A stretch of 33,139 nt of DNA, from NCBI GenBank assembly GCA_026982655.1, contig JALSGO010000011.1, forward strand, positions 1-33,139. Direction: 5' to 3'. Each line of letters opens with the position of its first letter. Positions within the stretch are counted from its first letter, which is position 1. Positions 3,309 to 32,907 of the stretch are shown here, one piece after another. The stretch comes from Candidatus Bipolaricaulota bacterium. GTDB lineage: Bacteria > Bipolaricaulota > Bipolaricaulia > RBG-16-55-9. Both the position numbers and the translations under genes were made by a program. Under the pieces are notes generated by a model. The model searched no databases. It was given only the letters and a program-made list of their open reading frames with translations, and had not been told where the DNA came from.

Positions 3309-4391
3309 TCATCTTGCTTCCCCCCGCGCCGTGCACTCGACCGACACGGTCTTCGCGGTGTTCTTCCCCAGCTCGTCAACTACGAGGACCTCCCAGACGA
3401 CCCGACCCTCTTGGGAGCAACGTGCCGTCAGTCGGAACGTCCCGGAGATGCGCCCTTTGACGTCGGGTGTGAAGACGCGGGCTACCGGCTTCAGCACCCC
3501 GGGGGAGGGCTGCATCTCGACTCGGGACAGGATGGCAAACGCTACATCCCGATCGGGATCTCGGAAGACCACGCTCACAGCGAACTCGGATCCGACGGGA
3601 ACCCGCCCGGGGAAGGTGAGGTCTAGGATCTGAGGACGCATGCTCCAATTCAGATCTCGCGCGAACAGGCGTGCCCGTCGGCATTGCTCGGGCGTAAGGG
3701 CACGTCCCCGCCCTCCGGAGACCATCAGGTTGCCGGAGAGATCCGAGTGGAAGAGCCCGAGGTTGTGGCCGAACTCGTGGGCAATCGTCCGGGTGGGGAT
3801 GCGGCCCAAGCTGCGCCACGCCACCAAGCTGATCCGGGCGTCCCTCCGGGCGGAGGGCAGCGCGCCCAGTCCCAGCACGTCGACCAGGGCGTCCACCACG
3901 AACAGGTTGATAGCACGGTACACGCGCTCTCCGGAGGGGAGGGCTCGGTTGGCCAATAGAGGGAGAGCCCGATAGTAGCTTGCGAACTCCTTGCGCTCTT
4001 GCAGGAGGGTCCTCCCGCTCGGGAGGGCAAGCCGTTGCGCCGCGACCACAGCCAGGACGTTCTGCTCAAAGCGCAGGGAGCAGACGGCCCACGTGCGGTT
4101 GACCCGCTCCAGGGCAAGCGCGACCAGTTGCCGAGCCAGGCCGCTGGGCGTTCCCAGCCAAGCGCCGGGCGCGGCAAAGGAGGGATCCCTTGCCAGAGGT
4201 GAGGGCGTCCCCCCAACGATGAAGACGTTTACCGGAACCGTGATCCAATCCTCACTGGCCTCGCGATCCCGATCGAGATCGGACACGGGTTGGGCCGACG
4301 CAAGGAGCGCCGCCCCCCCGACGACCAAGAGCCCAAGAAGAGCGCTGAGGCCCATCCTGCGGAAGCCCTCTTCGCCTTCGCCCCGGATCAC
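3309..4391 (-). CDS. Secreted metzincin-like zinc metallopeptidase
   Basis: N-terminal signal-like hydrophobic segment (LSALLGLLVVGGAALLASAQP); HExxHxxGxxH zinc motif 'HEFGHNLGLFH', followed by putative Met-turn 'GNLMVSGG'. Confidence 0.8.
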   Translation of the reverse strand: MIRGEGEEGFRRMGLSALLGLLVVGGAALLASAQPVSDLDRDREASEDWITVPVNVFIVGGTPSPLARDPSFAAPGAWLGTPSGLARQLVALALERVNRTWAVCSLRFEQNVLAVVAAQRLALPSGRTLLQERKEFASYYRALPLLANRALPSGERVYRAINLFVVDALVDVLGLGALPSARRDARISLVAWRSLGRIPTRTIAHEFGHNLGLFHSDLSGNLMVSGGRGRALTPEQCRRARLFARDLNWSMRPQILDLTFPGRVPVGSEFAVSVVFRDPDRDVAFAILSRVEMQPSPGVLKPVARVFTPDVKGRISGTFRLTARCSQEGRVVWEVLVVDELGKNTAKTVSVECTARGEAR

Positions 4392-29452: not shown

Positions 29453-29518
29453 TGGGCGGTGAGGGACTTGAACCCCCGACCTTCTGCACGTCAAGCAGAC
29501 GCTCTGCCAACTGAGCTG
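29453..29518 (-). tRNA. tRNA-Val(GAC)-like gene lacking a complementary 5' acceptor strand (probable att fragment or pseudo-tRNA)
   Basis: CAGCTCAGTTGGCAGAGCGTCTGCTTGACGTGCAGAAGGTCGGGGGTTCAAGTCCCTCACCGCCCA: D-, anticodon- and T-arms fold. The preceding 7 nt AAAATCC form no pairs with ACCGCCC. Confidence 0.75.
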
Positions 29519-29733: not shown

Positions 29734-30018
29734 ATGACGCAGAGGGATGAGCTACTCCGGGAAGAGCAACGGGTTAAGCGCCACGTCTCTTATGCCCTGC
29801 AGTCCTACGTGCAGTGGGGCTGGCGTGGGGATTACCAAGAGCTGCGACGGGAACTCACCCAGGAGGCGTGGCTGGGGTTGCTGCTGGGACGGCGAAGAGG
29901 ACAAGACAGCAAGCACGTAGACAACGCCATCCGACGCGCGCTCAATAGGTGGTGGCGCAGGGAACGAGAGTGGCTGGAGCACGTGGAAGTGCGCTCCATC
30001 GATGCGCCGGGCCTTTAG
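29734..30018 (+). CDS. Small protein resembling sigma-factor region 2
   Basis: MTQRDELLREEQRVKRHVSYALQSYVQWGWRGDYQELRRELTQEAWLGLLLGRRRGQDSKHVDNAIRRALNRWWRREREWLEHVEVRSIDAPGL; 'ELTQEAWLGLL...AIRRALNRWWRRER' pattern. Confidence 0.5.
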   Translation: MTQRDELLREEQRVKRHVSYALQSYVQWGWRGDYQELRRELTQEAWLGLLLGRRRGQDSKHVDNAIRRALNRWWRREREWLEHVEVRSIDAPGL

Positions 30019-30092: not shown

Positions 30093-30590
30093 TTATCGGA
30101 AACGGCCAAATGGCCGATTTCGATAAACTCCTAGGCCAACCCCGGCCTCAACGCTGCCGAATGGGGACGCAGACTGGGCGTCCCCGAACGCACCGTCCAG
30201 CGCTGGGTCTCCCACATCACCGAACGCTGGAGGAGAACACGCGAAGTCCAAGCTTGGCACCTCTACAAGCTGGGTTGGACTCAAAAAGAAATTGGGGAGA
30301 AGTTGGGAGTTGATCAGAGCGTCGTTAGTCGCCTTATGCAAAACCGTCAAATGACGGATTTGCATAAACTCCTCGGCTCGGACTGGAACGAGAAGGGTGT
30401 TCAGCAGGAGGCCGAGCGTTTGGGGATCCTTTGGGTTAGTCGCCTTGTCCAAAAACGGCCATTTGGCCGAATTTGGACAGCTCCTGGGTTCCGACTGGAA
30501 TGAGAAGGGTGTTCAGCAGGAGGCCGAACGCTTGGGGATCCTTTGGGTTAGTCGCCTTATGCAAAACGGCCATTTGGCCGATTTGCATAA
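30093..30590 (+). repeat. Array of four related 34-36 nt hairpins (30093-30126, 30334-30367, 30445-30480, 30557-30590); the last three spaced 111-112 nt apart
   Basis: Consensus TTATGCAAAA-CGGCC-(AAAT|ATTT)-GGCCG-ATTTGCATAA followed by A(A/G)CTCCTNGG; arms differ between copies but pairing is kept. Confidence 0.9.
30135..30503 (+). pseudogene. HTH-containing protein fragment with tandem HTH-like 37-aa module (frame-disrupted)
   Basis: Open frame after TAG at 30132: ANPGLNAAEWGRRLGVPERTVQRWVSHITERWRRTREVQAWHLYKLGWTQKEIGEKLGVDQSVVSRLMQNRQMTDLHKLLGSDWNEKGVQQEAERLGILWVSRLVQ...; continues in the shifted frame (ORF 30397-30651) as KNGHLAEFGQLLGSDWNEKGVQQEAERLGILWVSRLMQNGHLADLHKLLG. Confidence 0.6.
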
Positions 30591-30662
30591 ACTCCTGGGG
30601 GTGAGGGGAGGCCGGAGCCCCGGAGAGAGGCCCCGGCCCCCGGTCAGGTAAGAGGGAAGGGA

Positions 30663-31109
30663 TCAGCCACCGTAAGTACACCTACCGCACCTCATCCCTG
30701 TCATGACGCGCTCATCTGCCGGGCCTCCACACTCCGGGCACCGGAGGACCGGCACCGTCAGCTCAAGCCATCCCCGACGGTCGCAAGCTTGGCAGTCGCA
30801 GAGCTCCCCGTCCAGCAACGTCTTCTTCCAACCTTGGCCTCCGCACTCCCCGCAGGCCACTCTCACTGTCGTCCACTCCCATGTGTCCTTGACTTGGCGC
30901 TCATTGGCCCGTATTTTGGATTTGGCGACGGGAGCCGGGTGGAGGTCCCCGGCCAGGGACGCCCGGCTCTCTGTCGTGCTCTCAGCCCCATTCTGGGAGA
31001 GATCGCGCTCCATCAGCTCCGCCCCGATCGCCGTCCTCAACGCCTCCAGCTCTTGCTCCGTAAGCGTGTTGAGGCTTTCGATTAGACTTTGTGCTTTTGC
31101 ACTGAGCAT
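30663..31109 (-). CDS. Zinc-ribbon protein with eight Cys in CxxC-type pairs
   Basis: CGECGGQGWKKTLLDGELCDCQACDRRGWLELTVPVLRCPECGGPADERVMTGMRCGRCTYGG; SD-like GGGGGAGA before ATG at 31109 (track start 31145). Confidence 0.7.
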   Translation of the reverse strand: MLSAKAQSLIESLNTLTEQELEALRTAIGAELMERDLSQNGAESTTESRASLAGDLHPAPVAKSKIRANERQVKDTWEWTTVRVACGECGGQGWKKTLLDGELCDCQACDRRGWLELTVPVLRCPECGGPADERVMTGMRCGRCTYGG

Positions 31110-31362
31110 TTCCGGCTCTCCCCCTTTCGGATTTGACGATTTCAACCGCCAGCATGTGCTTGCACCACTTGATTTCCTTGCCCCTTCTTCGGTAGTCAGG
31201 ACAAGTGCACGTCCCGTTGACCATGTAGAAAGCTCCGTGAGAGCCCTCTACAATCCAATAGTCGTCCGCGCCTTCGATCCGGTGAACTTTACCCGCCCTC
31301 ACGATCTCCTTGGCCTTCTCCAGCCGCCGGTGGGCCGCCTCAATCCGCTGCACAACCGTCAT
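30982..31362 (-). CDS. SWIM zinc-finger protein, overlapping the zinc-ribbon gene
   Basis: MTVVQRIEAAHRRLEKAKEIVRAGKVHRIEGADDYWIVEGSHGAFYMVNGTCTCPDYRRRGKEIKWCKHMLAVEIVKS (CxCx(n)CxH); ATG at 31362 (track ORF extends to a TTG at 31434). Confidence 0.75.
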   Translation of the reverse strand: MTVVQRIEAAHRRLEKAKEIVRAGKVHRIEGADDYWIVEGSHGAFYMVNGTCTCPDYRRRGKEIKWCKHMLAVEIVKSERGRAGNAQCKSTKSNRKPQHAYGARAGGVEDGDRGGADGARSLPEWG

Positions 31363-31457
31363 CACTGATCCCCCCTCTCCTCTCTCAGTAGCTTGCTTTC
31401 GCTTCGCTTGCTTTCGCCGGTGTTCACTTGTCAAAGATCCTTTGATCTTGCACTGTA

Positions 31458-31486
31458 ATCATACCACATGGTGGCATGATTGTCAA
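31458..31486 (-). promoter_or_regulatory. Sigma70-type promoter driving the SWIM/zinc-ribbon genes, overlapping a 25-bp inverted repeat
   Basis: Minus strand TTGACA-N17-TATGAT; region AATCATaCCAC-ATG-GTGGcATGATT is nearly perfectly dyad-symmetric. Confidence 0.75.
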
Positions 31487-31558
31487 GGGGGTAACGCCGG
31501 GTAAATGAAGGGACATTCGTCACCAGAAAAAGTGGCTTACCGACACTGCAAGTCTAAC

Positions 31559-31587
31559 TTGCAATTGGTAAACGCAAGTGGTATGAT
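31559..31587 (+). promoter_or_regulatory. Sigma70-type promoter for the 31594 operon
   Basis: TTGCAA-N17-TATGAT, followed by gacacc and then the ATG. Confidence 0.7.
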
Positions 31588-31593
31588 GACACC

Positions 31594-31908
31594 ATGTTTC
31601 TCGCGAAACAGAGGAAGAAGAAACCGGAGGGCGGATACTGGACAGCTTGGGTGCTGCGGGACAGCTATTGGGATCGGGAAGAGAAACGGATCAAGCAACG
31701 GTATATCGCTTACGTTGGGAAAAAGCAGACGATCACGGAGTCCCAAGCCCGGGAACTGGCGTGCAAGGTGGCAGTGAAACTGGGGATCACGGAGGAAGAG
31801 GCGTGGCAGAAGCTGCGGAGGGTGAAGCGCCTGCGGATCGTGCCGGATGAGGAGCCGGAAGGCGGGGTGCTCACCCTGGCTCAGCATCGCAAGCGCGTCG
31901 CCCCATGA
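31594..31908 (+). CDS. Small accessory protein of unknown function
   Basis: MFLAKQRKKKPEGGYWTAWVLRDSYWDREEKRIKQRYIAYVGKKQTITESQARELACKVAVKLGITEEEAWQKLRRVKRLRIVPDEE... Confidence 0.7.
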   Translation: MFLAKQRKKKPEGGYWTAWVLRDSYWDREEKRIKQRYIAYVGKKQTITESQARELACKVAVKLGITEEEAWQKLRRVKRLRIVPDEEPEGGVLTLAQHRKRVAP

Positions 31909-32228
31909 CGGCCCACCGCAAAACCGTAGACGTAGAGCTGGAGCGAGCCGAGGACGTGCGGGAGCGCCGTACCTTCGAGCTTGAGCGGGGCAAGGTCCGG
32001 GCCTTCCGGCTGCAACTGGAGGTCCGCGTACAGGGCGAATGGAAGCCCGTCATCCGCTACGACACCGCCCACGGGTTCGTCGATTGTGATCGCTACGACT
32101 TGACAGGGAAGAAGTATAAGACGATACTCAACGTGTCCTTGGAAGAGGGTTTGACGTTGGCTCAGAACGACCTAAATGCGAATTGGGCCGTTTACCGAGA
32201 ACGATTCCTCCAGGGGTTGAAGCCCTAA
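31905..32228 (+). CDS. Small protein of unknown function (DUF7718-like)
   Basis: RGKVRAFRLQLEVRVQGEWKPVIRYDTAHGFVDCDRYDLTGKKYKT; ATGA overlap with upstream gene. Confidence 0.65.
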   Translation: MTAHRKTVDVELERAEDVRERRTFELERGKVRAFRLQLEVRVQGEWKPVIRYDTAHGFVDCDRYDLTGKKYKTILNVSLEEGLTLAQNDLNANWAVYRERFLQGLKP

Positions 32229-32275
32229 CTTGAGCCATGGGCCGGGGAAAGAGACAAAGGGAAAGGGAAGGAAAG

Positions 32276-32551
32276 ATGACTACATACGAGCGCAAGAACA
32301 CCCAGCTTATCGCCCTATTTGACGAGTTGACCCGCCGCCGACCGGATCTGCTGGGCGAGATCCCCAGCAGTGTTGCGTTGGTCATGCAGATCGATGGGGA
32401 TGAAGAGTTCAACCGCTGGGCCCGGGAAGTCGCCGAGCACAACAGCCCCGACCGTCCGAAGTTGTTGGTGGTCTTCCGCTTCGCGCAGCTTCCCCCGAAG
32501 AAGGCCCCTGCGTGGGAAGACGTACAAGCGTGGGAGTTGCAACCCGCCTAA
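32276..32551 (+). CDS. Small protein of unknown function (DUF5647-like)
   Basis: MTTYERKNTQLIALFDELTRRRPDLLGEIPSSVALVMQIDGDEEFNRWAREVAEHNSPDRPKLLVVFRFAQLPPK; SD GGAAGGAAAG upstream of ATG at 32276. Confidence 0.65.
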   Translation: MTTYERKNTQLIALFDELTRRRPDLLGEIPSSVALVMQIDGDEEFNRWAREVAEHNSPDRPKLLVVFRFAQLPPKKAPAWEDVQAWELQPA

Positions 32552-32907
32552 GCTTCTCCCCAAAGGCGCTTAGCGAGCGTATTGAGCACCCGCCGCAGCC
32601 TGCGCTCCCAAGCGTCCGAAAACCGGAAGTTGCCCGTCTCCAGCTTGCTGATGTCATCCCGCCTAACTCCCGACAAGCGTGCCAGATCCGCTTGGCGCAT
32701 CCCCAGCTCCTTGCGGGCCTGCTGAAGCAGAGAGCCATAGGCTTTGGCCACCCAGCGGGGGTCGTCGCTAAAGGTTTTCGCAGTAACTTCCAAAGCCTCC
32801 GCTAGCCGCTGATGCCAACGCTCGTCATCCTCCAAGAGCTGGGCCTCCCGATAGAGAAACCTTCGACGTTCTTCCTCATTTGCAAACTTAACTAACGCGA
32901 TGTGCAA
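32548..32907 (-). CDS. XRE-family HTH regulator
   Basis: YGSLLQQARKELGMRQADLARLSGVRRDDISKLETGNFRFSDAWERRLRRVLNTLAKRLW; start uncertain (TTG at 32907). Confidence 0.8.
   Translation of the reverse strand: MHIALVKFANEEERRRFLYREAQLLEDDERWHQRLAEALEVTAKTFSDDPRWVAKAYGSLLQQARKELGMRQADLARLSGVRRDDISKLETGNFRFSDAWERRLRRVLNTLAKRLWGEA

Follow-up and report, generated by a model that had tools for sequence, protein, structure and literature searches.

A tandem repeat in the genome of a Candidatus Bipolaricaulota bacterium raises the question of what has been duplicated and then preserved: a module of a DNA-binding protein, or a DNA site lying within the sequence that encodes it. The repeat occupies positions 30324-30585 of the window, the 33,139-nt stretch of one contig that was analysed (TRF score 371, 2.4 copies), and is found nowhere else in its own genome (a 2.08-Mb, 169-contig assembly). 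A sequence-only reading of this DNA had proposed that a 111-nt unit encodes an HTH-like module, that all substitutions between the copies are synonymous, and that the array possibly belongs to a modular tandem-HTH protein. The tandem repeat is real. The item most carefully repeated in it, however, is a palindromic DNA site and not a protein module, and the palindrome is a feature absent from that reading. The features of the locus are as follows.

30093..30126, unstranded: palindrome C0, TTATCGGAAACGGCCA-AA-TGGCCGATTTCGATAA, which includes the ATG at 30110
30135..30503, plus strand: frame with two HTH domains (LNAAEWGRRLGVPERTVQRW, WTQKEIGEKLGVDQSVVSRLMQN), between stops at 30132 and 30501
30324..30434, plus strand: repeat unit A (111 nt), with the recognition-helix end VSRL, a palindrome and the linker LHKLLGSDWNEKGVQQEAERLGILW
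30334..30367, unstranded: palindrome A, TTATGCAAAACCGTCA-AA-TGACGGATTTGCATAA, its score reached by 2 of 2000 synonymous shuffles
30435..30546, plus strand: repeat unit B1 (112 nt), with the frame change inside it
30446..30479, unstranded: palindrome B1, TGTCCAAAAACGGCCA-TT-TGGCCGAATTTGGACA, its left arm with a run of five A against four in A and B2
30547..30600, plus strand: partial repeat unit B2 (VSRLMQNGHLADLHKLLG), in the frame of the ORF at 30397-30651
30557..30590, unstranded: palindrome B2, TTATGCAAAACGGCCA-TT-TGGCCGATTTGCATAA, its score reached by 0 of 2000 synonymous shuffles

The unit start, GTTAGTCGCC, recurs at 30324, 30435 and 30547. The first step accordingly measures 111 nt, as had been claimed, and the second measures 112 nt; the two copies that had been compared at a spacing of 111 nt (30372 and 30484) are in fact 112 nt apart. 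A step of 111 nt followed by one of 112 nt puts the last copy out of frame with the first. Translation in the first copy's frame is stopped at 30501-30503, only a frame other than that of the HTH domains is open through the last copy, and the change of frame sits at the run of five A in B1. Duplication during assembly is ruled out as the origin of the repeat, given that the copies differ by 8-19%. The contig ends at 33139, 2.5 kb from the array.

The HTH-like character ascribed to the module is borne out for the sequence that precedes the array, where in-frame HTH domains are found at 30144-30350 (Pfam HTH_23, 5e-8; HTH_3, 1e-7) and predicted helices are present. The second of these domains superposes on the DeoR HTH at 0.7 A over 48 columns, with a Foldseek E of only 0.45, and a weak KorB/HTH_ParB profile signal also falls on the window HTH. 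The repeated unit, in contrast, is not a whole HTH; it begins inside the recognition helix (VSRLMQN), and a profile search with the translated tandem copies gave no HTH match. The frame carrying the domains has no ATG, GTG or TTG start upstream of 30303, and the ATG at 30110, the sole start codon close to where the HTH region begins, is in a different frame. The frame at 30135-30503 is a decayed or frame-broken gene. Close relatives of the window HTH were found neither in the family or phylum nor among phages or viral contigs, and a plasmid search returned one weak HTH match. The genome and viral matches that were inspected proved to be sigma factors and other HTHs.

Two parts of the repeated unit have diverged in different ways. 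Between its copies at 30369 and 30481, the linker LLGSDWNEKGVQQEAERLGILWVS shows six codon differences, all of them synonymous (L, G, S, N, E, R), for which P is about 1e-4 if changes are random. Purifying selection on the linker at the protein level after duplication, as had been suggested, is supported by this comparison, with six silent changes and none replacing. The broader claim that all substitutions are synonymous holds for the linker and fails in the palindrome: of the 11 codons compared (A at 30336, B2 at 30559), four differ, each of them by a nonsynonymous change (R/G, Q/H, M/L, T/A), and the palindrome is kept. The contrast between six silent and no replacing changes in the linker, and none and four in the palindrome, points to two constraints, and it would seem that a protein constraint acts in the linker and a DNA constraint in the palindrome.

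Each repeat unit holds a 34-bp near-perfect palindrome, and a fourth copy, C0, lies upstream at 30093-30126 with flanks related in sequence to those of the other copies. The palindromes begin immediately after the M of SRLM, and three of the four lie directly 3' of the recognition-helix codons or of the duplicated helix end. At equal strictness no comparable arms were found in the rest of the 33-kb window, and in the organism's own genome the palindromes occur only at this locus. Across the four copies, 92% of cells in the 16 pairs are Watson-Crick or G-U, seven of the 16 base pairs have changed on both sides (one pair being G-U-compatible), and none of the slid registers is more than 40% paired. 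The middle bases read CGGCC three times and CCGTC once; since they vary among the sites, one protein is not expected to prefer all four. Rfam recognised only a tRNA, and when the palindrome served as a short BLAST query, phages, plasmids and E. coli yielded chance-level matches or none. A loose pattern for the class, applied to 100 genomes of the phylum, picked out no well-paired sites except A and B2 of the window. On the minus strand at 30344-30580, three of the palindromes resemble weak terminators with short T runs, a number close to chance, for which 1.4 are expected.

Sites of the same class occur elsewhere, in genes of the DUF3102 family (PF11300), most of which belong to transposable phages. 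The 24-bp core of B2 (30562-30585) is identical to positions 3476-3499 of a viral contig (L028), inside a DUF3102-like gene, and a homologue of that gene (L031) carries a compensatory variant of the 24-mer. Further homologues, from Pseudomonas phage Fc22 and from plasmid records of E. coli and Citrobacter, have perfect or near-perfect palindromes of 24-26 bp with other sequence at the corresponding place, and the gene there adjoins the transposase. The survey was widened by 80 loci, and 81 DUF3102-like genes were compared. The site is present in 74 of these, and in 59 of the 74 it lies at exactly 20 nt past the M that ends the recognition helix (RFM). For 58 of 68 genes no better hairpin exists anywhere in the gene, the mean palindrome score is 10.0 as against 4.9 in synonymous shuffles, and for 50 of the 81 genes at most one of 200 shuffles was as good. 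The layout of the class is consistent, with an outer CAAA/TTTG and an inner CCA/TGG that are mostly constant and a middle that varies alike on both arms; this palindrome is a feature recognised in the present analysis and does not enter into the Pfam definition of the family. Additional sites were sought in the whole genomes of phages Fc22 and Bise, and each has one site.

Several other loci bear on the distribution of the class. Two DUF3102 loci (L150:1535-2343 and L168:1953-2761) have three sites of one half-site type each, two of them where the adjacent gene codes for its product's C terminus (KSAKLADL, KSANLANL) and the third in the DUF3102 gene; the extra sites repeat the TCCGCC half-site of that third one. 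A gene resembling that of a BRO-N antirepressor contains a further member of the class, a perfect palindrome (L190:3424-3448). At L173:2290-2670, an intergenic array of about ten mutually different near-perfect palindromes (24-26 bp, many of them CAAAT..ATTTG) adjoins a gene that fuses a BRO-N-like part to a DUF3102-like HTH part. Among the pattern matches set aside, that in L034 is an ordinary terminator-like hairpin, and those in L029, L030 and L032 have middles that are not fully paired and a different coding context.

The variable bases of the DUF3102 sites follow the residues of the recognition helix. With the rest of the protein controlled for, the distance between half-sites is related to the distance between recognition helices (partial Mantel r 0.33, reached in 0 of 2000 permutations). 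Apart from windows encoded by the palindrome, those over the helix score highest in the protein, and windows elsewhere reach only 0.19. A table of residues and bases was drawn up over 47 clusters, and it is descriptive, as its classes were set after the data had been inspected. Helices of the type R..R have CGG in both halves in eight of nine clusters, a combination seen in one of the 38 others, in none of the 14 with R..Q and in none of the eight with R..small/Y. For R..Q helices the bases are CG[CTA] in 13 of 14 clusters, as against five of the 33 others, none of these with R at the first position. Where R is followed by Y, A, S, H or V, the half-site has TGCC in all eight clusters and in none of the 39 others. 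The comparison of R..R with the other two R classes gives a Fisher p of 1e-6, the classes being post hoc. Binding of the DUF3102 protein to the palindrome within its own gene would explain this coupling most simply. The palindrome pattern itself is well supported by sequence; its function, and its application to the window protein, are inferred.

The window gene shares with the DUF3102 genes of B3/BcepMu-like transposable phages an HTH helix (SRLMQ in the window, RFMQ in DUF3102) followed by a palindrome that is of one class by sequence, palindromicity and position, along with the exact 24-bp match to copy B2. There are also differences. DUF3102 genes are intact and have one site, mostly at the 20-nt offset, whereas the window has four sites, adjoining the helix codons, in a gene whose frame is broken. 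The window gene also belongs to another sequence family. Alignment of the window HTH to DUF3102 by hhalign covers 18 columns, of the helix only, at a probability of 4%, and the PF11300 profile has no match in the organism's own genome or in 100 genomes of the phylum. Membership of the window protein in DUF3102 is thus not demonstrable from such comparisons. For DUF3102 itself, searches of the PDB by sequence and by fold returned nothing convincing.

We lean, by a little, towards reading the region as what is left of an HTH gene from a mobile element, one that had palindromic binding sites both inside its own coding sequence and next to it. The DUF3102 protein would dimerise on the palindrome within its own gene, and the bound site could serve as a roadblock or an autoregulatory site in an operon that runs into the phage transposase gene. 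The HTH protein of the window may have done likewise, although this is less certain than for DUF3102, and C0, which lies over the likely start codon at 30110, would then be an upstream autoregulatory operator. An in-frame 111-nt tandem duplication, begun inside the helix codons, would have multiplied the site, with the frame of the gene lost later. The coding sequence would have served both a protein, whose linker accepted silent changes only, and a DNA site, whose palindrome tolerated amino-acid changes. Against this stands the distance from the window HTH to its site, directly after SRLM, which is unlike the 20 nt of DUF3102.

Of the other explanations, one supposes that the palindromes work as a folded strand, either an mRNA hairpin or a DNA cruciform, so that selection acts on the fold and not on recognition of double-stranded DNA. 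The changes on both arms in the window, with one G-U-compatible pair, agree with this, as does the resemblance of three sites to weak minus-strand terminators. The differing palindromes arrayed in a single genome at L173 also favour it, ten such sequences suiting a structural element better than the site of a single protein. A fold alone, however, does not predict that the variable bases of DUF3102 sites track the recognition helix, conservation extends to the sequence itself of the outer CAAA/TTTG and the inner CCA/TGG, and an RNA hairpin with a two-base loop and a constant internal mismatch would be a poor one; the explanation is considered unlikely. A purely mutational origin has less to recommend it. 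Template-switching repair, in which a quasi-palindrome is corrected from its own other arm, is a known mechanism in bacteria, and it would produce arm-paired differences such as those among A, B1 and B2 without selection. Left unexplained are the nearly constant position of the site across diverged genes (74 of 81), the conservation of its outer and inner bases, and the link to helix residues. Such an origin is already disfavoured for DUF3102, and overall we regard it as improbable. The coupling with helix residues counts against the folded strand and the mutational origin alike for DUF3102; for the window both keep some probability.

A similarly small probability attaches to the proposal with which the analysis of the locus began, namely a modular tandem-HTH protein under purifying selection in which the palindromes are incidental. 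The six synonymous linker changes and the two HTH domains in the frame preceding the array are the parts of that proposal that stood. The unit itself is incomplete as an HTH and matches no HTH profile, the frame is broken, and the palindromes both exceed synonymous shuffles and override amino-acid conservation. Homologues with variable module counts were found in none of the 100 phylum genomes, phages or plasmids searched, which gave no close homologue of any kind. Finally, the sites could form a parS-like cluster concerned with segregation or condensation of a mobile element and not with the control of transcription. Single or clustered palindromes near the gene of their own binding protein recall ParB and parS, and the weak KorB/HTH_ParB signal on the window HTH is in keeping with this. 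On the neighbouring window proteins that were scanned, however, neither ParA nor a ParB N-terminal domain was found, and DUF3102 adjoins a transposase in these phages, which leaves a parS-like role very improbable.

Operators and parS sites are known in or near their own genes, and the ParB/parS and KorB/operator systems, as here, place palindromic sites inside an HTH protein's gene or close to it. In the present case the site is, by comparison, tied to a fixed place beside the helix codons. The Rickettsia palindromic elements offer another parallel, being in-frame palindromes in coding sequence, but they are dispersed through many unrelated genes of one genome, whereas the palindromes of the window are confined to one locus. 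The difference in specificity between ParB and Noc is reported to have been examined as a switch at the level of the helix (PMC7383237). The part of the literature that was covered contained nothing on the function of DUF3102 and no report of such intragenic sites. As far as could be found, then, a site at a fixed place beside the helix codons that co-varies with the helix is new.

A more general reading, for and against which we see an even case, is that some mobile-element HTH regulators carry their own palindromic site in frame, just 3' of the recognition-helix codons. The same joint reading, held with the same even balance throughout, takes specificity and target to be one inherited, co-evolving unit with a readable residue-to-base code, and has arrays such as that of the window arise through tandem duplication of the helix end together with the site. 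If it is true, a phage protein family carries its target within its own gene, and specificity and site move together. A site in the gene that tracks the helix would constitute a natural data set for the protein-DNA recognition code, and for DUF3102 it opens a direct and cheap route to function. There is also a warning here that conserved "peptides" beside HTHs, such as KSANLAVL and QNGHLADL, can stem from selection at the DNA level.

The surroundings of the array have a foreign appearance. Upstream, the ORF at 29734-30015 has no family match, and downstream, at 30663-32907, are small genes of a mobile-element type, for SWIM zinc-finger-like, DUF7718, DUF5647 and Xre-type HTH proteins. On the minus strand at 29461-29517 lies a tRNA-like sequence, recognised by Rfam (positions 9-63 of 71) and not called by ARAGORN. 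It lies at the border of the foreign-looking stretch around the array, perhaps as the mark of an integration site.
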